48,158 bases of DNA. Origin: Ruminococcus sp. (GTDB taxonomy: Bacteria > Bacillota > Clostridia > Oscillospirales > Ruminococcaceae). Of the stretch, positions 9,300-45,142 are shown piece after piece. Below the pieces are notes generated by a model that was given only the letters and a program-made list of their open reading frames with translations, made no database searches and had not been told where the DNA came from. Position 1 is the first letter of the stretch; each line of letters begins with the position of its first letter. The position numbers and the translations under genes were made by a program. Location: the NCBI GenBank assembly GCA_017521805.1, contig JAFXDK010000001.1:1-48158 (forward strand), written 5' to 3'.

Positions 9300-9416
9300 A
9301 GAGGTTAGAAAAATTAAGAATTATGAATTATGAATTAAGAATTGATGTGGGCGGTTGATTTTTAATAATGCGTAATTATATGTAGGGGCTGCCTTTGGCA
9401 GTCCGCTGATGAAATT
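9300..9416. repeat. Intergenic repeat fragments
   Basis: AT-rich repeats of the type GAATTATGAATTATGAATTA (about 9321-9340) are followed by TGTAGGGGCTGCCTTTGGCA with its GTCCGC tail at about 9380-9405, a hairpin also found at 33124-33150 and 45085-45110. No gene. Confidence 0.6.
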
Positions 9417-9810: not shown

Positions 9811-12711
9811 ATGAATTTAAAATTAATTATCAGCAGAGCAGTATCTGCGGTAACGGCTTCGGCTATGCTTGTTACAGCATTTGCTGTAATGCCGACGGAG
9901 GAAAATTTCCTCGAAACATCAGCGGCAAGTGCTGTTGTAGTCGATACAACCACAGAATACCAGACTATCCGTGGTTTCGGCGGTATCAACCACCCTGAAT
10001 GGACAGGTCAGGACCTTACAGAAGCACAGAGAAAAACAGCTTTCGGTAACGGCGATAATCAGCTTGGTATGTCTATACTCCGAGTGTTCGTAAACCCCGA
10101 CAAGAATCAGTGGAACAAGGCGGTTGCAACTGCGAAATATGCGCAGTCACAGGGAGCTACAATCTTTGCTTCACCATGGGAACCACCCTCGAATCTCGCT
10201 GAAAAAGGCTCAGGCGGCGCAAGAGGAGGAAAACTCCACCTGCCGAAATCAAACTATGCGGCATACGCTCAGCATCTTAACGATTTCGGTACATACATGA
10301 AAAATCAGGGCGTTGAGCTGTATTCTATCTCAGTTCAGAATGAGCCAGACTACGCTGACGAGTGGACAGCATGGTCATCGGACGAAACTACCGACTTCCT
10401 TGCAAACTATGCGGACAAAATCACAAGTACCCGTGTAATGTCTCCCGAAACTTTCCAGTATACAAATAAGGACTATTATACAAAAATTCTCAACAACTCA
10501 AAGGCTATGGCAAACTGTGACCTCTTTGCAACTCATTTCTACGGCACACAGAGAAGCCAGATGGATTTCCCTGCTCTTGAAAACAGCGGCAAGGAAATCT
10601 GGATGACTGAGGTATATGTTCCAAACAGTGAAGCAAACTCCAACAACATCTGGAGTCAGGCTATTCAGGTATCTGAAAATATCCACAATGGTCTTGTTGT
10701 AGGAAATATGAGCGCTTATGTATGGTGGTACATCAGAAGAAGCTACGGTCCCATGAGCGAGGACGGTTCAATTTCCAAGCGCGGATACAATATGGCTCAT
10801 TATTCCAAGTGGGTTCGCCCCGGAGATATCCGTATTGAAGCAACTGAACAGCCTGCAAGCGGAGTTCTCGTTTCTGCGTACAAAAACGATAATAAGCAGG
10901 TAACTATCGTCGCTATCAACAAGGGTACAGAGGGCTATGCTCAGGAGTTCAAAATCGGCAGCGGAGAAAAAATCATTGACGTTGACCGTTGGAGAACAAC
11001 TGCAAATGAAAATCTTGCACTTACAGAAGATCTCGAAAACGACGGCAGCAGTTTCTTTGCACAGCTTCCTGCAAGCAGTGTTACAACATTTGTTGTAAGC
11101 CTTGAGGGCAGCGGAGTTACTCCCGGCTCACAGCCTGACGAAAACGGTTACTACTATCACGATACATTCGAAGGAGATTCATCCGACTGGACAGGCAGAG
11201 GCGACGCTACAGTTATGACAAGCGGCCGTACTTTCTATGAGGGAGCAGAAGCGCTTCTCGTTCAGGAAAGAACTGCTACATGGAACGGTACAGCGAAATC
11301 CCTCAATTCTAAGGTGTTCAAGCCCGGTGAAACTTACAGTTTCAGTACACTTGCAACATATTTTGACGGCGAAGCTTCCACAAAGTTCTTTATGAAGTTA
11401 CAGTATGTAGGCTCCGACGGCGAAACTCATTACGATTCTATTGCAGAGGGCGAGACAATCCCTGGTTCATGGGTACAGCTTGCAAATGCGAATTATACTA
11501 TCCCTGCCGATGCAACGGAGATGCAGATTTATGTTGAAACAGAAGCAGGAACAGAGAATTTCTATATCGACGAGGCAATTGGTGCTGTTGCAGGTACAAA
11601 GATAAGCGGTCCTGAAGCTCCCGAGATTCCAGACCCCACAGTTCCCGTTACTCCTCCCTCAGCAGATGATTTCTATGCAGGCGATGTAACACTTGACGGC
11701 ATTGTTGATGTGTTCGACCTTATCGCTATGAGAAAGGGCGTTGTAGGCAGCTTTGGCAGCGATATTGCAAAATGTGCCGCTGATGTAAACGCTGACGGCG
11801 AAAATAATGTATCTGACCTTGTTCTTCTCAACAAGTATCTCCTTGGTCAGAAAGTTGAACTGAAAAAAGCAGAGCTTCCAATGGCAGAGATGAAAACAAT
11901 TTCCGTTTATACTCCTGAGGTTGCAAAGCTTGTTTCTGAGTTTGAACCTAACGATTCCAAAACTGAAAAGTCAGGAGTACAGTACGGTACACTTGTATCA
12001 AAGAAATATTATTCAGATTTCTGTAAGCGTGAGAAGCCCTATAATGTACTTCTCCCCGCAGGGTACACAGAGAGCAAGAAATATCCTGTAATGTATGTAA
12101 TGCACGGCTACTGGGAGAATCAGGACAGAATGATTATCAAGGGCAACAGTACAATGTATACTCGCCAGATTATCGGTAATGCTATTGCCGAGGGTGCGGC
12201 GGAAGATATGATTGTTGTATTCCCATACATCTATTCAAGTCAGACGCAGGATGACTGCTCAGGAATGGACGACGCAAACAATATCGCATACGATAACTTC
12301 GGAACTGTTCTTACAACAGAGCTTATGCCCCTTATTGAAAAGGAATACAGCGTAGCTACAGGCAGAGAAAATACAGCTATTACAGGCTTCTCCATGGGCG
12401 GCAGAGAGTCACTTCTCATTGGTATGAAGTATCCCGATAAGTTCGGTTATGTTGGTGCAATATGTGCGGCTCCCGGAGTAACGGGTTCATTCAACTTTGC
12501 TTCCGAAGAAGCAGCTCCCTCACTCATTTTCCTTACAGCAGGAAGTAACGACGAGGTAGTTTATACAACTCCTGAGGGCTATCACAATAACTTCACAAAG
12601 AACAACGTTCCTCACATCTGGCACTATGTAAACGGTGGATATCACGGTGAAAACTGTATTCACGCTCACATTTACAACTTTGCAAGATTTGCTTTCAAGG
12701 CAGATAATTAA
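9811..12711 (+). CDS. Cellulosomal glucuronoxylanase/esterase GH30-CBM22-dockerin-CE1
   Basis: A 966-residue exported enzyme. Signal peptide about 1-42; GH30 about 45-430 with acid/base E178 (SVQNEPDY) and nucleophile E267 (IWMTEVY), and the segment YVWWYIRRSYG that in GH30 subfamily 8 xylanases reads the glucuronic acid side group; CBM22 about 445-595; dockerin about 621-685 (GDVTLDGIVDVFD, ADVNADGENNVSD); CE1 esterase about 705-966 with nucleophile S861 in GFSMGG and a likely Asp/His pair in AGSNDEVV and YHGENCIHAH. It should cut glucuronoxylan and release feruloyl or acetyl esters. The dockerin is again internal, between two catalytic domains. Start follows AAAGGGATGATT. Esterase substrate is uncertain. 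Confidence 0.95.
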   Translation: MNLKLIISRAVSAVTASAMLVTAFAVMPTEENFLETSAASAVVVDTTTEYQTIRGFGGINHPEWTGQDLTEAQRKTAFGNGDNQLGMSILRVFVNPDKNQWNKAVATAKYAQSQGATIFASPWEPPSNLAEKGSGGARGGKLHLPKSNYAAYAQHLNDFGTYMKNQGVELYSISVQNEPDYADEWTAWSSDETTDFLANYADKITSTRVMSPETFQYTNKDYYTKILNNSKAMANCDLFATHFYGTQRSQMDFPALENSGKEIWMTEVYVPNSEANSNNIWSQAIQVSENIHNGLVVGNMSAYVWWYIRRSYGPMSEDGSISKRGYNMAHYSKWVRPGDIRIEATEQPASGVLVSAYKNDNKQVTIVAINKGTEGYAQEFKIGSGEKIIDVDRWRTTANENLALTEDLENDGSSFFAQLPASSVTTFVVSLEGSGVTPGSQPDENGYYYHDTFEGDSSDWTGRGDATVMTSGRTFYEGAEALLVQERTATWNGTAKSLNSKVFKPGETYSFSTLATYFDGEASTKFFMKLQYVGSDGETHYDSIAEGETIPGSWVQLANANYTIPADATEMQIYVETEAGTENFYIDEAIGAVAGTKISGPEAPEIPDPTVPVTPPSADDFYAGDVTLDGIVDVFDLIAMRKGVVGSFGSDIAKCAADVNADGENNVSDLVLLNKYLLGQKVELKKAELPMAEMKTISVYTPEVAKLVSEFEPNDSKTEKSGVQYGTLVSKKYYSDFCKREKPYNVLLPAGYTESKKYPVMYVMHGYWENQDRMIIKGNSTMYTRQIIGNAIAEGAAEDMIVVFPYIYSSQTQDDCSGMDDANNIAYDNFGTVLTTELMPLIEKEYSVATGRENTAITGFSMGGRESLLIGMKYPDKFGYVGAICAAPGVTGSFNFASEEAAPSLIFLTAGSNDEVVYTTPEGYHNNFTKNNVPHIWHYVNGGYHGENCIHAHIYNFARFAFKADN

Positions 12712-13004
12712 GTAATCCTCTAATTTATCCCTCAGCGAGAGCCTCGCAGGCAATTCGCGTTGTAATTTCTGCAAAAGGTAGAATAGCTCCGCGATTCATA
12801 AAAATGAAATCCTCTAATTTATCCCTCAGCGAGAGCCTCGCAGGCAATTCGCGCTGTAATTTCTGCAAAAAGGCAGAATAACTCCGCGATTCATAAATAA
12901 GTAATCCTCTAATTTATCCCTCATAATGCGGTTGCACAGAAAGTGCGGCCGCATATTTATTTATGGGTATATTATTGCTATTTAGAAAATTTTCAAAATA
13001 CCTC
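12712..13004. repeat. 94-bp tandem repeat (2.2 copies) and hairpin
   Basis: Units begin with AATCCTCTAATTTATCCCTC at 12714, 12808 and 12903 (periods of 94 and 95 bp). The first two are full length and differ at a few positions; the third stops after about 23 bp. Each contains GCGAG agc CTCGC. The array starts three bases after the GH30-CE1 stop. The third copy leads into an imperfect hairpin ATGCGG...CCGCAT (12926-12954), a possible terminator. No gene is visible. Confidence 0.8.
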
Positions 13005-14047: not shown

Positions 14048-14187
14048 CAGTCTGTAGAAAAAGGCATATTTTATTTAAGGGCGAGCAATGCTCGCCCCTA
14101 CAATTGGCTATATTGCGATATTTTGTGTAGGGGCGACCATTGGTCGCCCGCAATTTCGGAACGAAATTCAAGTTTTTCGACACGTTC
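14048..14187. mobile_element. MITE-like repeat, copy A, between duplicated terminators
   Basis: A noncoding element bounded by short inverted ends, GTCTGTAGAAAAA (14050-14062) and GTTTTTCGACAC (14172-14183), about 134 bp end to end. Inside are two hairpins (GGGCGAGCAATGCTCGCCC and GGGCGACCATTGGTCGCCC) and the constant part CGCAATTTCGGAACGAAATT. The flanking 26-bp terminator hairpin is exactly duplicated on both sides. Related copies are at 33152-33286 and 45008-45142. Confidence 0.8.
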
Positions 14188-14265: not shown

Positions 14266-16014
14266 TTAAACAAATGAAAGATATTTCGAGGTATATTCTT
14301 CAAATTGTTTTCTGTAGTGTTCATCATTACTGCGGAGCTGTTTCAGTGATTCGTGGAGATTCATATTCTGCTCCTTAACGTCAATCACACATCCTGCAAT
14401 ATTGGAGCAATGGTCGGAAACGCGCTCCATATTAGTGATAAGGTCATTCCATACAAATCCTGCCTCAATGCCGCAGCCGCCTACACGGAGACGCTCAATA
14501 TGTCTTGAACGGAGAAGTTCTTTCATTTTGTCGATAACCTGCTCAAGAGGTTCAACAAGCTTAGCCTGTTCAGCGTCAGATTTTTTGAATGAAGCATGCG
14601 AAAGATTAACAATTTCAGTTACAGCATTTGCAAGGGAATCCATTTCAATTTGTGCATCATTGGAAAATTCAATTTCCTTATCGCGCATTTCCTCTGCGGA
14701 TTCAAGAATATTTACCGCATGGTCGCTGATACGCTCAAAATCTCCGATAGCTTTAAGGAGCATTGAAGCTGTAGCTCCTTCTGTCTCGTTAAGCTGATAT
14801 GTGCTGAGCTTTACGAGATATGTTCCGATGATATCTTCCATATGGTCAGTTTTATCTTCGGATTCGCGGATATCATTTGCAGATTCCTTGTTGTATTCTG
14901 TAAGACATGATATGCTTGATTTGAGAGCATTTGCGGCGATTTCAGCCATTTCATGAGTAAGATTATATGCACATTCAAGGGCGATTGCAGGAGTTGCAAG
15001 AAGTCTTTCATCAAGAATGGTTGTTTCTTCCTGTGTATCTGTATCGGGAACAAGCTTATATGCAAGCTTTTCAAGAAGTCCCGACATTGGCAAGAGTATT
15101 GCTGTACAGGCAATGTTAAAGATTGAGTGGCATATAGCGATACCTGCAAGACTTGCTGATTCATCGAATATTGCAGGAGAAATCAAAAGATTTACTATAG
15201 AAAATACGCTGAGGCAGATAACAGTGCCGATTATATTGAATGAGAGGTGTACAAGAGCAGCACGACGGGCATTTTTAGCTGTTCCGACTGAGGAGAGAAG
15301 CGCTGTAACGCAAGTACCGATATTCTGTCCCATGATAATCGGAATAGCCGCGCCGTAGGAAACAGCTCCCGTGGCCGCAAGAGCCTGTAATATACCAACG
15401 GAAGCGGAACTTGACTGGATAATACCTGTCAGAATTGCACCTGCAAGAACTCCGAGAATAGGATTCTTGAACATGATGAACATATTCTGGAATGCAGGAA
15501 CTTCTTTAAGTCCCGATACAGCATCTGTCATAGTGTCCATACCGAACATAAGCGTTGCAAATCCAAGGAGAATCATACCAATATCCTTTTTCTTTGCCCC
15601 TTTTGTAAACATATACAGAATGATTCCCACAAGGGCGAGAACAGGGGTAAAAGATGTAGGTTTCAGCAGCTGCAAAACGATATTATCTCCCGAAATTCCG
15701 CCGAGACTGAGAATCCACGCTGTTACAGTAGTGCCGACATTCGCACCCATGATAACGTGGATAGCTTGTTTAAGGCTCATAAGACCTGAGTTTACAAAAC
15801 CGACAACCATAACTGTTGTTGCAGATGAACTCTGAATAATTGCGGTTACACCAAGACCTGTGAGAAATCCTGTAAACTTTCCTGTGGTGAGTTTAGCAAT
15901 CATAGTTTCAAGCTTGCTGCCTGCACTTCTTTCAAGGGATTCACCCATGATATTCATTCCAAAAAGGAACAGGCACAAGCCTCCGATAAGGGTTAAGACG
16001 TTAAAAATATCCAT
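14266..16014 (-). CDS. Na/Pi cotransporter family protein with PhoU-like domain
   Basis: A 582-residue inner-membrane phosphate transporter or exporter of the NptA/YjbB type. The membrane part (about 1-310) holds two inverted repeats with the QSSSATT and QSSSAS motifs that form the sodium/phosphate path. The C-terminal part (about 345-560) is a helical PhoU-like domain with MEDIIGTYLVKLS and ERISDHAVNI, and a second such motif (ERVSDHCSNI). Length is usual. Start is fixed by GGAGGAAAATGT before the ATG. It stands alone on the minus strand. PhoU-type domains usually tie transport to phosphate status; direction of transport is not certain. Confidence 0.93.
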   Translation of the reverse strand: MDIFNVLTLIGGLCLFLFGMNIMGESLERSAGSKLETMIAKLTTGKFTGFLTGLGVTAIIQSSSATTVMVVGFVNSGLMSLKQAIHVIMGANVGTTVTAWILSLGGISGDNIVLQLLKPTSFTPVLALVGIILYMFTKGAKKKDIGMILLGFATLMFGMDTMTDAVSGLKEVPAFQNMFIMFKNPILGVLAGAILTGIIQSSSASVGILQALAATGAVSYGAAIPIIMGQNIGTCVTALLSSVGTAKNARRAALVHLSFNIIGTVICLSVFSIVNLLISPAIFDESASLAGIAICHSIFNIACTAILLPMSGLLEKLAYKLVPDTDTQEETTILDERLLATPAIALECAYNLTHEMAEIAANALKSSISCLTEYNKESANDIRESEDKTDHMEDIIGTYLVKLSTYQLNETEGATASMLLKAIGDFERISDHAVNILESAEEMRDKEIEFSNDAQIEMDSLANAVTEIVNLSHASFKKSDAEQAKLVEPLEQVIDKMKELLRSRHIERLRVGGCGIEAGFVWNDLITNMERVSDHCSNIAGCVIDVKEQNMNLHESLKQLRSNDEHYRKQFEEYTSKYLSFV

Positions 16015-16110
16015 ACATTTTCCTCCGTTTCATTTTTCATACAGATTATATCATAGCAATGTTAAATTTGAAACGGGCGAAATGTAAAATCTATTTAAAA
16101 TTATGGCGAA

Positions 16111-16142
16111 AAAACAAGTCTCCCTCGCTAACCAACAAACGA
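16111..16142. repeat. Islet left direct repeat (32 bp)
   Basis: Perfect 32-bp copy of 17560-17591. It contains the left arm and loop of the 17565-17600 hairpin (AAGTCTCCCTCG ctaaccaacaaa) plus three bases of the right arm, so the left copy is a truncated hairpin. Confidence 0.9.
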
Positions 16143-16227
16143 TATTTATATAATTGTTGTAAATGTACAAGATAGACGGGCAAAATGTGTGCAAAATGCT
16201 AATTTTACAAAATTTAATACTACACTA

Positions 16228-16256
16228 TTGACTTATCACTACTTTTTTGTTATAAT
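16228..16256 (+). promoter_or_regulatory. Islet promoter
   Basis: TTGACT (16228-16233), 17-base spacer, TATAAT (16251-16256): a near-consensus vegetative promoter 33 bp before the first islet gene. Confidence 0.85.
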
Positions 16257-16288
16257 ATAATTAAAGAAGCTTATGAGGAAGTGAAGTA

Positions 16289-16783
16289 ATGAAAACATAT
16301 ACAGTAAAAGAAATAGCAGAAATGCTTAAAACAAACCCGGAAACAGTTCGAAGGTGGATTAGATTGGGAAAACTTGAAGCGGAACAATATTCAAGAAAAG
16401 GAGGGAATGTAATAACTGAATACAATTTAAAAAAGTTCCTTGAAACCACGACCAAATATGCCGGAATTGCAGGTGCATCTATTGGTGCATTAGGAGTAAG
16501 CGGTGCTGTAGCGGGGATAGCATTTAATATCTTTCTTCAAAAGGTTATGGAGGATATTAAAAATAACAATTCTCAAATTTCAAAAGAGGATATTGTAAAA
16601 TTTATTGATGCTTCAATTGTGGAAGCAAAGAAGTTGATAATCAAAAAGGAGGAATTGATTGCTAAGAAAAAAGAGGAAATAAAAAAGCTTGAAAAGGAGA
16701 TGTTAGAAGAAAACAAAAGAATAAAAGAATATTTGGCAAGTAAGCAAAAGCTTCTTGAAACGGAAAGTCCACAAACTGATTGA
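16289..16783 (+). CDS. Excisionase/MerR-type HTH protein with glycine-rich hydrophobic segment and coiled coil
   Basis: A 164-residue protein of unknown function. Residues 1-55 are a helix-turn-helix of the excisionase/MerR kind (TVKEIAEMLKTNPETVRRWI, then GNVITEYNLKKFLE). Residues about 58-85 are a small-residue hydrophobic stretch (GIAGASIGALGVSGAVAGIA) able to form a membrane or glycine-zipper helix. Residues about 100-160 are a charged coiled coil rich in Lys and Glu. A DNA-binding head tethered to a membrane-like helix is unusual. GAGGAAGTGAAGTA precedes the ATG. It is the first islet gene, so it may regulate the islet or help its movement; both are inference. Confidence 0.8.
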   Translation: MKTYTVKEIAEMLKTNPETVRRWIRLGKLEAEQYSRKGGNVITEYNLKKFLETTTKYAGIAGASIGALGVSGAVAGIAFNIFLQKVMEDIKNNNSQISKEDIVKFIDASIVEAKKLIIKKEELIAKKKEEIKKLEKEMLEENKRIKEYLASKQKLLETESPQTD

Positions 16784-16799
16784 AAGGGGTATTTCTTTT

Positions 16800-17117
16800 A
16801 TGGCATGGAATCCAGAGGAAAAAGGCAATTACGCATGGTTATCACAGCAGGCTAAAGAACATGGTGGAGTAGACAAGTATATTGACGATATTCATAATGC
16901 TGGTTATAATGAAGGTCATGATAAAGGAGTTGTACAAGGAGCCGTGGGGGTAACAGGAGCTATAGCTGCAATATTTCTTATAGTTGAAGGCGTTAAAAAA
17001 ATTATAGAAAAACACATAAAAAAGAAAAAAGAAGTTCATCAGCAGGCGGAAAATTCTAAAGAAGTAATAAAAGAAATTTGCAAAGAAGAAGCTATAGAGG
17101 AGGAATTTTATTTATGA
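16800..17117 (+). CDS. Small single-helix membrane protein of the islet
   Basis: A hypothetical protein of 105 residues. The frame opens earlier at a TTG (16755), but the ATG at 16800 has GAAAGGGG upstream and is preferred. The N-terminal part is polar and aromatic (MAWNPEEKGNYAWLSQQAKE), then a glycine-rich membrane helix at about residues 42-65 (GAVGVTGAIAAIFLIVEGV) followed by Lys-rich and Glu-rich sequence. The hydrophobic segment resembles in style that of the upstream HTH protein, so the two may interact in the membrane; this is inference. Its stop overlaps the next gene's ATG. I do not recognise a family. Confidence 0.75.
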   Translation: MAWNPEEKGNYAWLSQQAKEHGGVDKYIDDIHNAGYNEGHDKGVVQGAVGVTGAIAAIFLIVEGVKKIIEKHIKKKKEVHQQAENSKEVIKEICKEEAIEEEFYL

Positions 17118-17296
17118 GCGAGCGTTTTCCTGATACTGATTGGTGGTGCGATAGGTGCGGAGCATATCTGAATGACCAAGATGATTTTGATGACAATAAT
17201 TACACGCATAGATGTACAGAGTGTGGGCATAAAAACAGCATTTCAAAAGATAACATTTACGATTCACATGAAGATTTCTTAAATGGGTGGCATTAA
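17114..17296 (+). CDS. Small zinc-ribbon protein of the islet
   Basis: A 60-residue protein with two CxxC knuckles (WWCDRCGAYLN and HRCTECGHKN) spaced as in a zinc ribbon, in an otherwise acidic chain. Zinc ribbons of this size often bind nucleic acid or protein partners; no specific role can be given. The frame opens earlier, but GAGGAGG before the ATG at 17114 and the 4-base overlap with the previous stop fix the start. It is third in the islet operon. Confidence 0.75.
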   Translation: MSERFPDTDWWCDRCGAYLNDQDDFDDNNYTHRCTECGHKNSISKDNIYDSHEDFLNGWH

Positions 17297-17297
17297 T

Positions 17298-17501
17298 ATG
17301 AACGAAGAATATATCATTCACACTAATAATACTTAAATACATGAAATAGAGAAGAAAATATCTGATTTTTCTAAAAAGCATAAGTTACCTTTATCAGAAG
17401 AAGAACGTAATGAATTAGGAGAGTTACTAAACAAAAGAGCAGGGGTGCTTTCAGATATTTTAGGTGTAAAAATAGGTTCTGTAGTAGGAAATAATAAATA
17501 A
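17298..17501 (+). pseudogene. Small islet gene with an in-frame stop at codon 13
   Basis: An ATG at 17298 lies one base after the previous stop with GGGTGG upstream. It reads MNEEYIIHTNNT, then TAA (17334-17336), then in the same frame continues for 54 codons (HEIEKKISDFSKKHKLPLSE ... VKIGSVVGNNK) to a TAA at 17499. The downstream part is a convincing small helical protein and has no good internal start. Simplest view: a nonsense-broken gene of 67 codons. Alternatives are stop-codon readthrough or a start at a non-ATG codon after the stop. Family not recognised. Confidence 0.55.
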
Positions 17502-17504
17502 TGA

Positions 17505-17546
17505 TAGAAGCTCATTGCAAAAATAATATAATGCAATGAGCTTCTA
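17505..17546 (+). terminator. Islet terminator
   Basis: Perfect 14-bp stem TAGAAGCTCATTGC / GCAATGAGCTTCTA with a 14-base loop, four bases after the last islet frame. The T-run after it is poor. Confidence 0.7.
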
Positions 17547-17559
17547 TATACAATCTTAT

Positions 17560-17600
17560 AAAACAAGTCTCCCTCGCTAACCAACAAACGAGGGAGACTT
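17560..17600. terminator. Target hairpin and right direct repeat of the islet
   Basis: AAGTCTCCCTCG (17565-17576), 12-base loop, CGAGGGAGACTT (17589-17600). Bases 17560-17591 are the 32-bp direct repeat also found at 16111-16142. It lies downstream of minus-strand xylA. Confidence 0.8.
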
Positions 17601-17644
17601 TATAATTAAGAAGGATAGTAAAAATTCAAAATAATAGAGAGGGT

Positions 17645-17686
17645 TTGTTAAGGAAACTCTGAATAATTCAGGTGTTTCCTTAACAA
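17645..17686 (-). terminator. xylA terminator
   Basis: Inverted repeat TTGTTAAGGAAAC / GTTTCCTTAACAA (13-bp stem) 20 bp beyond the xylose isomerase stop on the minus strand. Confidence 0.65.
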
Positions 17687-17705
17687 TTTAACTTGAAATC
17701 ATTAA

Positions 17706-19031
17706 TTAAAGATTGAACATAATGTTGTTCAGAACAGCTTCCAGCATTTCCTGTCTGCCGCTGGAGAGGGAATCAGTAACCTCGTCCTTTTCAAGAGCGT
17801 ATTTTTCAAGGTCAGCAAGATTAACCTTGCCGTCGATGATATCCTTACCGATGCCTGTTGTCCATGAAGCATAACGGTCATCAACGAACTTGTCAATACG
17901 TCCGTCAGAGATAAGCTTATCAGCAATTCTCAGACCGAGTGCAAATGTATCCATACCAGCAATATAGCTGTGGAAGATATCTTCAGGTGTGAAGCTTCCG
18001 CGTCTTGCCTTTGAATCAAAGTTAAGACCGCCGTTTGTGAAACCGCCTGCCTTGAGAACCTCGTACATACAGAGAGCAGCCTCGTAAACGTTTGTGGGGA
18101 ACTGGTCAGTATCCCAACCGAGAAGTGTATCGCCCTGGTTAGCGTCGATTGAACCAAATGCACCGTTCTCACGAGCAACACGGAGCTCATGCTGGAATGT
18201 GTGCTGTGCAAGAGTAGCATGGTTAGCCTCAATGTTCATCTTGAAATCCTTGTCAAGACCGTACTTGCGGAGGAAGCCGAGAACAGTAGCTGTATCGAAA
18301 TCGTACTGGTGCTTTGTAGGCTCCTTGGGCTTGGGCTCAATGTAGAAATCGCCTGTATAACCGATAGAACGAGCATACTCAACAGCCATTTTCATAAGAC
18401 GAGCCATGTTGTCAAGCTCAAGACCCATATTTGTGTTGAGGAGAGTTTCGTAACCCTCACGTCCGCCCCAGAATACATAGCCGTTACCGCCAAGCTTTAC
18501 AGTAGCGTCAATAGCCTTTTTGATCTGTGCACCTGCGTATGCGAAAACGTCAGCAGAGGGAGATGTGCCTGCACCGTGCATGAAGCGTGGGTGGTCGAAG
18601 CACTTAGCTGTACCCCAGAGAAGCTTCTTTGAAGGGTCAGCAGCCATTTTTTCTGCTACATAATCAACGATAGCGTCGAATTTCTCATTTGTCTCAGCAA
18701 GTGAGCCATATTCAGGAGAAAGGTCACGGTCGTGGAAGCAGAAATAGTCAATGGAAAGCTTATCCATAATCTCGAAAGCAGCGTCAACCTTAGCTTTAGC
18801 GCGTGCCTCGGGGTCGGATTCGCCCCATGTCTTATCTGTTGTGCCGCAGCCGAACATATCAGTACCGTCGCCGCCCATTGTATGCCACCATGAGAGAGCG
18901 AACTTGAGCTGCTCCTTCATAGTCTTGCCGCCGATAACCTCATCGGGATTGTAGTATTTGAAAGCAAGGGGATTTGTGCTGTCCTTTCCCTCATAGGGAA
19001 TCTTGCCTATATTGCTGAAAAATTCACTCAT
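17706..19031 (-). CDS. xylA: Xylose isomerase
   Basis: Converts D-xylose to D-xylulose in the cytoplasm, the entry step of pentose metabolism; needs two divalent metals. At 441 residues it is a class II (long) enzyme with the N-terminal extension seen in gut Firmicutes and Bacteroidetes. Visible signatures: catalytic [27 protein letters not shown], metal-ligand region [15 protein letters not shown] and [18 protein letters not shown]. The ATG follows GGAGGTTTTTAAA. No xylulokinase is adjacent. The 5' leader carries a hairpin at 19066-19089, and an AraC regulator lies upstream on the same strand. Confidence 0.98.
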
Positions 19032-33026: not shown

Positions 33027-33400
33027 ATTATCACCTCCTGTTATAACAATCGTTTTAAAAGAAAAAAGTGGACAAAAAATGCGTAATTATTTTGTTTTCA
33101 GATATTTTACTATAATTATCACATTGTAGGGGCTGCCTTTGGCAGTCCGCAGTCTGTAGAAAAAGCCAGTTCTATGCACGGGCGCACAGGAATGCGCCCC
33201 TACAGATTGGCTATTTTGCGTCGTTTCGTGCAGGGGCGGATATTATCCGCCCGCAATTTCGGAACGAAATTCAGGTTTTTCGATAACCTCGGGACTGCCT
33301 TTGGCAGTCTGAAAAAATTTTTTCAGAAATTTTAAAATAAATGCAACGTTTTTTATTTCTCAGGTGTGTTATTTATAGAAGCCTATAAATTCCATATAAT
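33027..33400. other. Intergenic region holding MITE-like copy B
   Basis: No gene. It contains the leader of the sigma gene (AAAACGATTGTTATAAC at about 33040-33056 on the minus strand, a possible promoter) and the repeat element at 33124-33310. Confidence 0.6.
33152..33286. mobile_element. MITE-like repeat, copy B
   Basis: Ends GTCTGTAGAAAAA (33152-33164) and GTTTTTCGATAAC (about 33275-33287). Internal hairpins GGGCGCACAGGAATGCGCCC and GGGCGGATATTATCCGCCC and the constant CGCAATTTCGGAACGAAATT. It is flanked by two copies of CTGCCTTTGGCAGTC (33133-33147 and 33295-33309), so it again lies between repeated hairpins. Confidence 0.75.
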
Positions 33401-45007: not shown

Positions 45008-45142
45008 GTCTGTAGAAAAAGGTGTATTGCATAATGGACACGGCACGCCGTGTCCCTACAAAACGGCTATTCTAAGCTGTTTTGTGTAGGGGCTGCCTTT
45101 GGCAGTCCGCAATTTCGGAACGAAATTATAGTTTTTCAACAA
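45008..45142. mobile_element. MITE-like repeat, copy C
   Basis: Ends GTCTGTAGAAAAA (45008-45020) and GTTTTTCAACA (45131-45141), 135 bp. Internal hairpins GGACACGGCACGCCGTGTCC and GGGCTGCCTTTGGCAGTCC, constant part CGCAATTTCGGAACGAAATT. It is flanked by two copies of the ACCGCCGC...GCGGCGGT terminator. Confidence 0.8.

Follow-up and report, generated by a model that had tools for sequence, protein, structure and literature searches.

A 1.4-kb islet at a Ruminococcus terminator: a putative membrane-anchored regulator with interchangeable partner genes

What is a short, AT-rich block of DNA, equipped with a promoter, genes and a terminator-like hairpin of its own, doing within the terminator of another gene? 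The block in question, here called the islet, occupies positions 16111-17591 of a 48,158-nt stretch of DNA from Ruminococcus sp. (GenBank assembly GCA_017521805.1, contig JAFXDK010000001.1, positions 1 to 48,158 of the forward strand); this whole stretch is referred to as the window. The answer favored here, with a probability of roughly 0.6, is that the islet is an inserted modular cargo operon in which a membrane-anchored autorepressor is coupled to a swappable anti-phage effector.

The islet and its insertion site

The islet is bounded by two copies of a 32-bp sequence, AAAACAAGTCTCCCTCGCTAACCAACAAACGA, at 16111-16142 (left) and 17560-17591 (right). These copies are identical at 32/32 positions, lie 1449 bp apart, and represent the sole pair of this kind in the window; at ≤3 mismatches, a 27-bp core of the repeat has two matches in the window vs. 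none in 100 shuffles. Most of the right repeat is included in an intact hairpin (17565-17600, minus strand; terminator-like in the scan) that lies 3' of a xylose-isomerase-type ORF (open reading frame; 17706-19031, minus strand), which we take to be xylA. The left repeat is a cut half of this hairpin, interrupted after the initial bases of the second arm, and forms the junction to the side of a Na/Pi cotransporter gene with PhoU domains (14266-16014, minus strand; Pfam). Between the repeats the GC content is 0.32 vs. 0.40-0.50 in five 500-bp segments wholly outside, the operon is directed opposite to both minus-strand neighbors, and the ORF list contains no integrase. The perfect repeats, the cut and the intact hairpin, the AT-richness, the orientation and the lack of an integrase had been described in an initial annotation of the window, and all of these hold.

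The same annotation proposed that the islet had integrated into the terminator hairpin, and related genomes bear this out. The xylA-side flank was matched in 79 of 125 genomes of the genus searched, and the xylA neighborhoods were read in 29 relatives with loci, the genome of the window apart. (Genomes and loci carry G and L numbers, respectively.) A hairpin with the loop AACCAACAAACG stands beside xylA in 5/29 of these relatives: G068, G046, G045, G058, and G073. In G068, the same Na/Pi gene lies at the left (82% identity), the islet is absent, and a single uncut hairpin with this loop is present. G045 has the Na/Pi gene, one hairpin and no islet, with ~300 bp of other sequence in between; in G058 the Na/Pi gene is present but reversed; and in G046 and G073 there is no Na/Pi cotransporter match within the 1.5 kb examined. 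An alignment displays both islet junctions together with the five islet-free sites. Because G068 has the same neighbors, one uncut terminator and no islet, this comparison indicates that the islet is an insertion relative to G068, which left 32 bp in duplicate and kept the xylA terminator intact. The locus shows two marks of an islet integrated by site-specific recombination: its direct repeats are att-like and identical, and a relative has the site without the islet.

It had also been suggested to look for the same repeat at other terminators, and the searches gave no support for it, nor for movement of the islet in trans. The exact 14-bp loop occurs in 4/125 genus genomes, each time at the xylA terminator, with one extra match inside a 115-aa ORF of G068. 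No second site for the islet repeat was present in the 125 genomes, the 20-bp core of the repeat had no exact match in viral contigs, and no recombinase for the islet site was found.

Three further observations concern this region. Among related species (L012-L016), the loop AACCAACAAACG of the xylA terminator is kept and the stem is variable. The ~300 bp that G045 carries where the window has the islet (L014, about 1205-1500) is unrelated, AT-rich and without repeats. Finally, on another contig of the window's own genome (C31; L003, 1240-1850), inverted-repeat-like stretches with CCTCCCTCG-type ends surround a segment that is 84% identical to the window immediately left of the islet.

Gene 1 and the putative operator at its promoter

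A sigma-70-type promoter, TTGACT-17-TATAAT, lies within the islet at 16228-16256 (plus strand) and matches the consensus at 11/12 positions, although promoter-like matches over the whole region are not above chance (10 vs. a shuffle mean of 7.3). All of the frames that follow are on the plus strand. Gene 1 (16289-16783) encodes a 164-aa protein with a helix-turn-helix (HTH_17; 4.4e-10, Pfam), a glycine-rich hydrophobic segment (residues 65-83) and a coiled coil, as seen by ORF analysis and alignment. Gene 2 (16800-17117; ORF and alignment) encodes 105 aa with one hydrophobic helix and the motif W..YA.L...A..GG[PV], referred to here as partner type T1. Gene 3 (17114-17296) encodes a 60-aa zinc ribbon with cysteines at 12, 15, 34, and 37; it is 88% identical to its counterpart at L049, which thus holds the same gene trio as the window. 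The promoter and these three frames are as the initial annotation described them. The fourth short frame, which it also listed as a gene (17298-17501), is broken or non-coding, since it contains an in-frame TAA at codon 13 (17334-17336) and no plus-strand ORF of ≥40 aa is listed there. The operon ends at a 16-bp perfect hairpin (17504-17547), found by hairpin search and read, as before, as the operon terminator; it is not in the terminator scan list since its 12-nt loop exceeds the limit of that scan.

Relatives of gene 1 are scattered. A full relative is present in 2/125 genus genomes, the window's own included, and the other (G030) is 55% identical. At E 0.001, 4/125 genomes matched; two weak, distant matches were set aside, of which that in G117 reads as an IS607-type recombinase and that in G108 has the same score and frame length. 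At E 1e-20, gene 1 was present, own genome included, in 2/396 sampled genomes of the taxonomic family and 3/391 of the class, the other genomes matched holding loci already in the set. A profile of four gene 1 sequences gave 73 loci among genome contigs and a further 10 among viral ones, and plasmid records with relatives were found for Butyrivibrio (pCY186) and Acetoanaerobium. Besides the window, 39 loci were counted as family members, after removal of near-duplicates (L069, L120, L121, L122), loci with the HTH alone (L084, L088-L119, L125-L129), L078 and L123, and L086 and L087, where gene 1 is divided between two frames. To judge from record titles, members are mostly Clostridia, with some Coriobacteria and others. 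Matches in Staphylococcus and Marinitoga were rejected since they covered only about the first 52-54 residues, and peptide patterns built on one sequence gave no matches. On these counts, gene 1 founds a patchy family, and the islet genes are not core, a possibility for which the initial annotation had allowed. No description of this family or its operator was found in the open-licence literature searched, which is weak evidence of absence.

Two oddities of the family may be recorded here. L086 and L087, from a Caldisericales metagenome-assembled genome and Flexilinea flocculi, are records 98.8% identical to each other in which the two adjacent frames of the split gene 1 are followed by a zinc ribbon. 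At L052 (6001), the family start position of gene 1 reads Ile, a non-standard start codon.

Within the protein, ETVRRW is unchanged across 41 aligned sequences, an invariance that is partly built in because N[PE]ETVRRW served as a pattern in part of the search. The hydrophobic segment (Kyte-Doolittle, 19 residues, ≥1.5) is present in 35/39 members vs. 3/35 HTH-only controls (2/26 and 1/9, two sets pooled), and at L044, L079, and L124 it seems by eye long enough for two helices. Gene 1 is thus probably membrane-attached, as judged from its composition. Profile searches give an HTH_BldC match far below cut-off (NCBIfam, 6.6e-5); a search of PDB sequences gives coiled-coil, HTH, and other weak matches, including the membrane protein 8qox at 0.0021.

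The 140-bp regions upstream of gene 1 have the sequence TAATACTACATTT in common. With ≤2 mismatches allowed, the 5.9 kb of upstream sequence contain 61 sites, and the 464 kb of other sequence in these loci contain 36. At ≤3 mismatches, 37/43 upstream regions contain at least one site and 30/43 contain two or more, the 43 regions being that of the window and those of 42 loci, of which one is truncated and some are not among the 39. Since the consensus was derived from the same regions in which it was counted, a split-half test was needed: the top 9-mer of 20 upstream regions (≤1 mismatch) recurs in 18/21 of the others, vs. 154/4087 random windows and 378/4200 shuffles, the regions being partly related to each other and not fully independent. 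A degenerate core starts between the -35 and -10 elements in 23/35 callable promoters and lies within 30 bp before the -35 element in 23/35, with the commonest starts at +7 and -13 from the -35 start; these are raw counts with no chance control. In the window, one copy, TAATACTACACTA (16215-16227, plus strand), has 2 mismatches to the family consensus, and a second (16234-16246, plus strand; 3 mismatches) falls within the spacer; both come from a consensus scan. Operator conservation, on these comparisons, is solid. Gene 1 apparently autoregulates its own promoter through this putative operator, and placement between the -35 and -10 elements suggests repression, which is probably the form that autoregulation takes.

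Two other roles for such a protein must be weighed here. First, gene 1 might serve the islet as an excisionase, or recombination directionality factor, with a recombinase supplied in trans and the other genes as passengers. The HTH resembles TIGR01764 (4.3e-6, just below cut-off), phrog_2907 (1.3e-5), and phrog_66 (1.4e-5), and factors of this kind are reported to be able to bind to direct repeats and to control transcription (PMC11963761, PMC7498355). However, within 16050-17700 the operator-like sites are confined to the promoter (16210-16246), with none near the right repeat and none at an att core; relatives keep the promoter operator without such flanking repeats; and a hydrophobic segment and coiled coil are unexpected in an excisionase. 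This role is improbable. Second, the combination of HTH and coiled coil and a weak match to NCBIfam RacA (0.0086) would fit a protein that anchors DNA to the membrane in a RacA-like or partition-like manner, giving the operon a structural or segregation role. Such a role is very improbable: the operator sites are concentrated at the gene 1 promoter (within the loci examined), and some partners match defence families.

Partner genes and a candidate role in phage defence

The genes next to gene 1 were assigned to partner types by reading. (The names Bunzi, Uzume, HEC, and MADS are used here as in the PADLOC models.) Type T1, as in the window, is also present at L048, L049, L050, L051, L054, L065, and L066. 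Another type matches the N-terminal region of JukB (L047, L052, L064, and, by weaker likeness, L082; match at 1.5e-8). Type T3, of about 360 aa, is found at L053, L055, L056, and L063, followed at L056 by an HEC-07 match (2.1e-11). BnzA-like partners occur at L059, where BnzB (1.5e-69) is also present, and at L124, and yet another type has an LLPNQT-like C-terminus. At L062, the next gene encodes a 154-aa UzuA-like GIY-YIG protein that matches the UzuA C-terminus (4.8e-46). The L085 partner matches PDC-M09B (5e-15), that of pCY186 gives a weak PIN match (CARF_PIN, 5.6e-4), and that of Acetoanaerobium is HNH-like by eye, with no PADLOC match. Zinc ribbons are recurrent as the third gene.

Closely related loci differ abruptly at this position. 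Between L047 and L048, the promoter and gene 1 show 86% identity, the second genes differ, and identity resumes at 82% through a 4.66-kb stretch of McrBC-like genes. Between L050 and L052, identity is 78% across the promoter and gene 1, after which the two loci differ; between L060 and L062, it is 82% and extends just into gene 2, after which these loci differ as well. In a tree of gene 1, these three pairs are sisters at 98% support (Shimodaira-Hasegawa-like approximate likelihood ratio test), and 14/34 inner branches are open. Partner type changes at least 22 times on this quick tree (37 rows, 36 labelled, 17 labels by reading, no shuffled control), and at least 16 changes are unavoidable because there are 17 labels. 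As judged from these comparisons, the gene downstream of gene 1 is interchangeable; the constant part would be the regulator, and probably the anchor, and the variable part the effector.

The T1 protein of L066 also has relatives in two Streptococcus salivarius plasmid records (38.7% identity over 69% of the L066 protein) and no phage match. On an S. salivarius megaplasmid (L176, 1520-3113), the T1-like membrane protein follows an XRE-like regulator beside xerS; as in this case, the regulator too may be exchangeable.

How might such an operon work? In the mechanism proposed, the gene 1 product is a membrane-anchored, MerR/BldC-like protein that would bind the TAATACTACATTT sites repeated across its own promoter, thereby holding the operon at a low level. 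Gene 2 would be a small membrane effector, restrained by, or recruited via, the hydrophobic segment and coiled coil of gene 1, and gene 3 would be an accessory zinc ribbon. Our guess at the trigger is that an infecting phage perturbs either the membrane or the complex of the gene 1 product with DNA, so that restraint is lifted; the freed effector would then stop the infection, at a guess through death or arrest of the cell. Elsewhere in the family, other effectors would be coupled to this regulator. It is because some effectors of the family are defence-like that the islet of the window is read as a mobile cargo for defence whose effector is a small membrane protein. In addition, McrBC-like genes adjoin the L047 and L048 operons. 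The family thus probably serves in anti-phage defence, carried as mobile cargo, to the extent that partner matches indicate function. The initial annotation had offered phage-defence cargo as one idea, and the partners of relatives, which match defence proteins, speak for it; the window's own partner matches none.

The surroundings of other family loci bear on a different origin, in which the islet is the remnant of a larger integrated element that has lost its integrase, the repeats being the old attL and attR. Gene 1 comes directly after large serine recombinases at L055, L056, and L124 (by eye). Pfam Recombinase is found in 5/123 neighboring ORFs, a set hand-picked from 138 with two L075 frames added. 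At L066, which is identical to a virus-labelled IMG/VR contig and thus taken as prophage, a portal-like gene lies downstream (one Phage_portal match among the 123), and at L075, gene 1 lies between integrase-like and repressor-like frames (by eye). These settings, together with the broken fourth frame, would suit a remnant. On the other side, the repeats are still identical, there is little room for remnants because the -35 box and the last hairpin are 86 and 13 bp from the repeats, and identical ends of 32 bp are not what a serine recombinase would be expected to leave. This origin is, on balance, rather unlikely. Flanking repeats were also considered as a family trait and were not seen at the other loci searched: no exact flanking repeat exceeds 19 bp (some flanks are short, at contig ends). 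The longest, 19 bp at L071, is part of a repeated terminator, followed by 18 bp at L083 and 16 bp at L075, beside the repressor-like and integrase-like frames.

The main rival to a role in defence is that the operon serves mobile DNA as a toxin-antitoxin-like addiction module, in which gene 1 would be the antitoxin that neutralizes a membrane toxin, gene 2, and stability of the element, not defence, would be selected. By sequence, the operon has the layout of a type II toxin-antitoxin system, a DNA-binding protein with an operator at its own promoter. The same reading is favored by the small membrane protein encoded next to gene 1, by the many combinations in which partners occur, by the presence of relatives on a plasmid and in contigs labelled as viral, and by the S. 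salivarius T1 partner, which stands behind a different, XRE-like regulator. Several partners, however, are large or match named defence proteins. The two readings partly overlap since many toxin-antitoxin modules also defend; taken by itself, addiction is an unlikely account of the family.

Several results weigh against the modular defence operon preferred here. Searches of Pfam, NCBIfam, PADLOC, and PHROGs gave no match with E ≤ 0.01 to gene 2 of the window, and plasmid records gave none either; since it matches nothing, it is cast as the effector by its position only. The T3 partners show no membrane helix. Taken over the family, such a helix in one of the next two ORFs (26/39 members vs. 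6/35 controls; 3/26 and 3/9, pooled) speaks for the reading, but at least one of the 26, L057, is likely a false positive, and L054 was missed. L071, L080, L081, and L085 lack a clear hydrophobic segment in gene 1. Operator pairs are not of a single form, being on the same strand 18-24 bp apart in 15/43 upstream regions and on opposite strands 18-45 bp apart in 13/43, with five loci in both groups, and the window itself has one good copy and one degenerate copy. When the pair was used to find operons, a loose form occurred in 19/391 genomes (reversed control, 6) and gene 1 was at 0/19 of these loci; the pattern also missed the gene 1 loci of three known carrier genomes. In viral contigs, gene 1 adjoined 0/17 such loci. 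Finally, PADLOC at 1e-10 on the 123 neighbors gave 149 families, with AbiE, HEC-06, E1-E2, JAB, mad2, and PDC-M26A among the matches listed; no enrichment for defence is claimed because the library includes common cell functions (helicases, methyltransferases) and there was no control set.

A broader proposal, more tentative than the reading of the islet itself, is a new class of bacterial immune module in which a membrane-embedded DNA-binding protein would both repress its own operon via the conserved operator and sense infection at the membrane, driving any of ~10 types of plug-in effector, spread as 1-2 kb cassettes. The candidate effectors would comprise small membrane proteins, GIY-YIG, PIN-like, and HNH-like nucleases, and Bunzi and JukB-type parts. 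This generalization is doubtful, and slightly more so since PDC-M09 may already cover a part of it. If true, one unnamed regulator would join Bunzi, Uzume, and JukB-like parts, which were described separately, into a single modular scheme; new effectors could be found by looking downstream of gene 1; and there would be a test case for membrane-anchored control of immunity. The islet would also provide an example of mobile cargo reduced to 1.4 kb, for which a relative shows the site without the insertion, and the operator and swap pairs open the regulatory part to ordinary binding and reporter assays.

Elsewhere in the window, about three successive ~94-bp units lie at 12704-12954, with 73- and 56-nt direct repeats that are 91-93% identical. 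Repeats of another family, whose copies resemble GTAGGGGC..CCTTTGGCAG..CCGC, are scattered at 9376-9406, 14121-14151, 33120-33150, and 45080-45110, the copies being 74-94% identical to the first.

Comparison with known systems

Gene 1 shares with BldC a MerR/BldC-type HTH, and profile comparison matches it weakly to 6AMK and 6AMA, two structures of BldC (E about 0.05). BldC binds direct repeats (PMC5859096). However, BldC has 68 residues and no coiled coil, while gene 1 adds both the hydrophobic segment and a coiled coil, and the gene 1 operator pairs are direct in just 15/43 upstream regions and on opposite strands in 13/43. With MADS, the likeness is confined to the HTH: mad1 matches 41/41 gene 1 members at E 0.01, but it is a 60-position HTH profile, the match in the window covers residues 1-39, and the islet contains no other MADS gene.

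Other systems resemble the family in design. The PanA-type network is reported to consist of hyperpromiscuous toxin-antitoxin pairs in which one conserved component is combined with many partners (PMC10440598). The gene 1 family likewise has one conserved component and many partners, but the Pfam scan of gene 1 lists no PanA-type domain, and gene 1 has a hydrophobic segment. Juk (jumbo phage killer, JukA/JukB) is characterized by one constant component with diverse effectors and by a membrane target (PMC13282480). The gene 1 family too has a single constant part with variable effectors, and 3/44 partners match the JukB N-terminal region (L047 and L064 identified). The constant part here is an HTH protein, however, the match spans 44-50 of 323 JukB positions, and it is absent from the window's partner, which has no meaningful BLASTP match to the JukB-like partner. 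PADLOC gave no JukB match in the window frames, and no JukA match in these or in the genes of L010, the presence of a JukA model in the library being unchecked.

In Bunzi and Uzume, the likeness lies in the partners. At L059, gene 1 heads an operon with BnzB and a protein that matches the middle of BnzA (2.3e-7), but this protein has 185 aa vs. a 544-position profile, and the window has neither BnzA nor BnzB. The GIY-YIG protein of L062 matches UzuA positions 161-310, but the N-terminal half of UzuA is unmatched, a separate membrane protein precedes it at L062, and no such protein is present in the window.

The last system to compare is PDC-M09, a PADLOC candidate system, on whose function nothing was found in the open-licence literature searched. 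PDC-M09A matches 11/41 gene 1 members (best 5.6e-6), and PDC-M09B matches the L085 partner. However, these matches are weak and partial, gene 1 of the window has no PDC-M09A match at 0.01, and A and B are not in the window. Because PDC-M09A weakly matches 11/41 members, part of the family may be catalogued already, and PDC-M09 may be a related arrangement that covers this part. The earlier statement that the gene set resembles no named system was, then, too strong: it fits the window's small membrane partner, which matches nothing, whereas relatives of the islet share partners with Bunzi, Uzume, and, in one N-terminal domain, Juk, and PDC-M09 is perhaps related to them.

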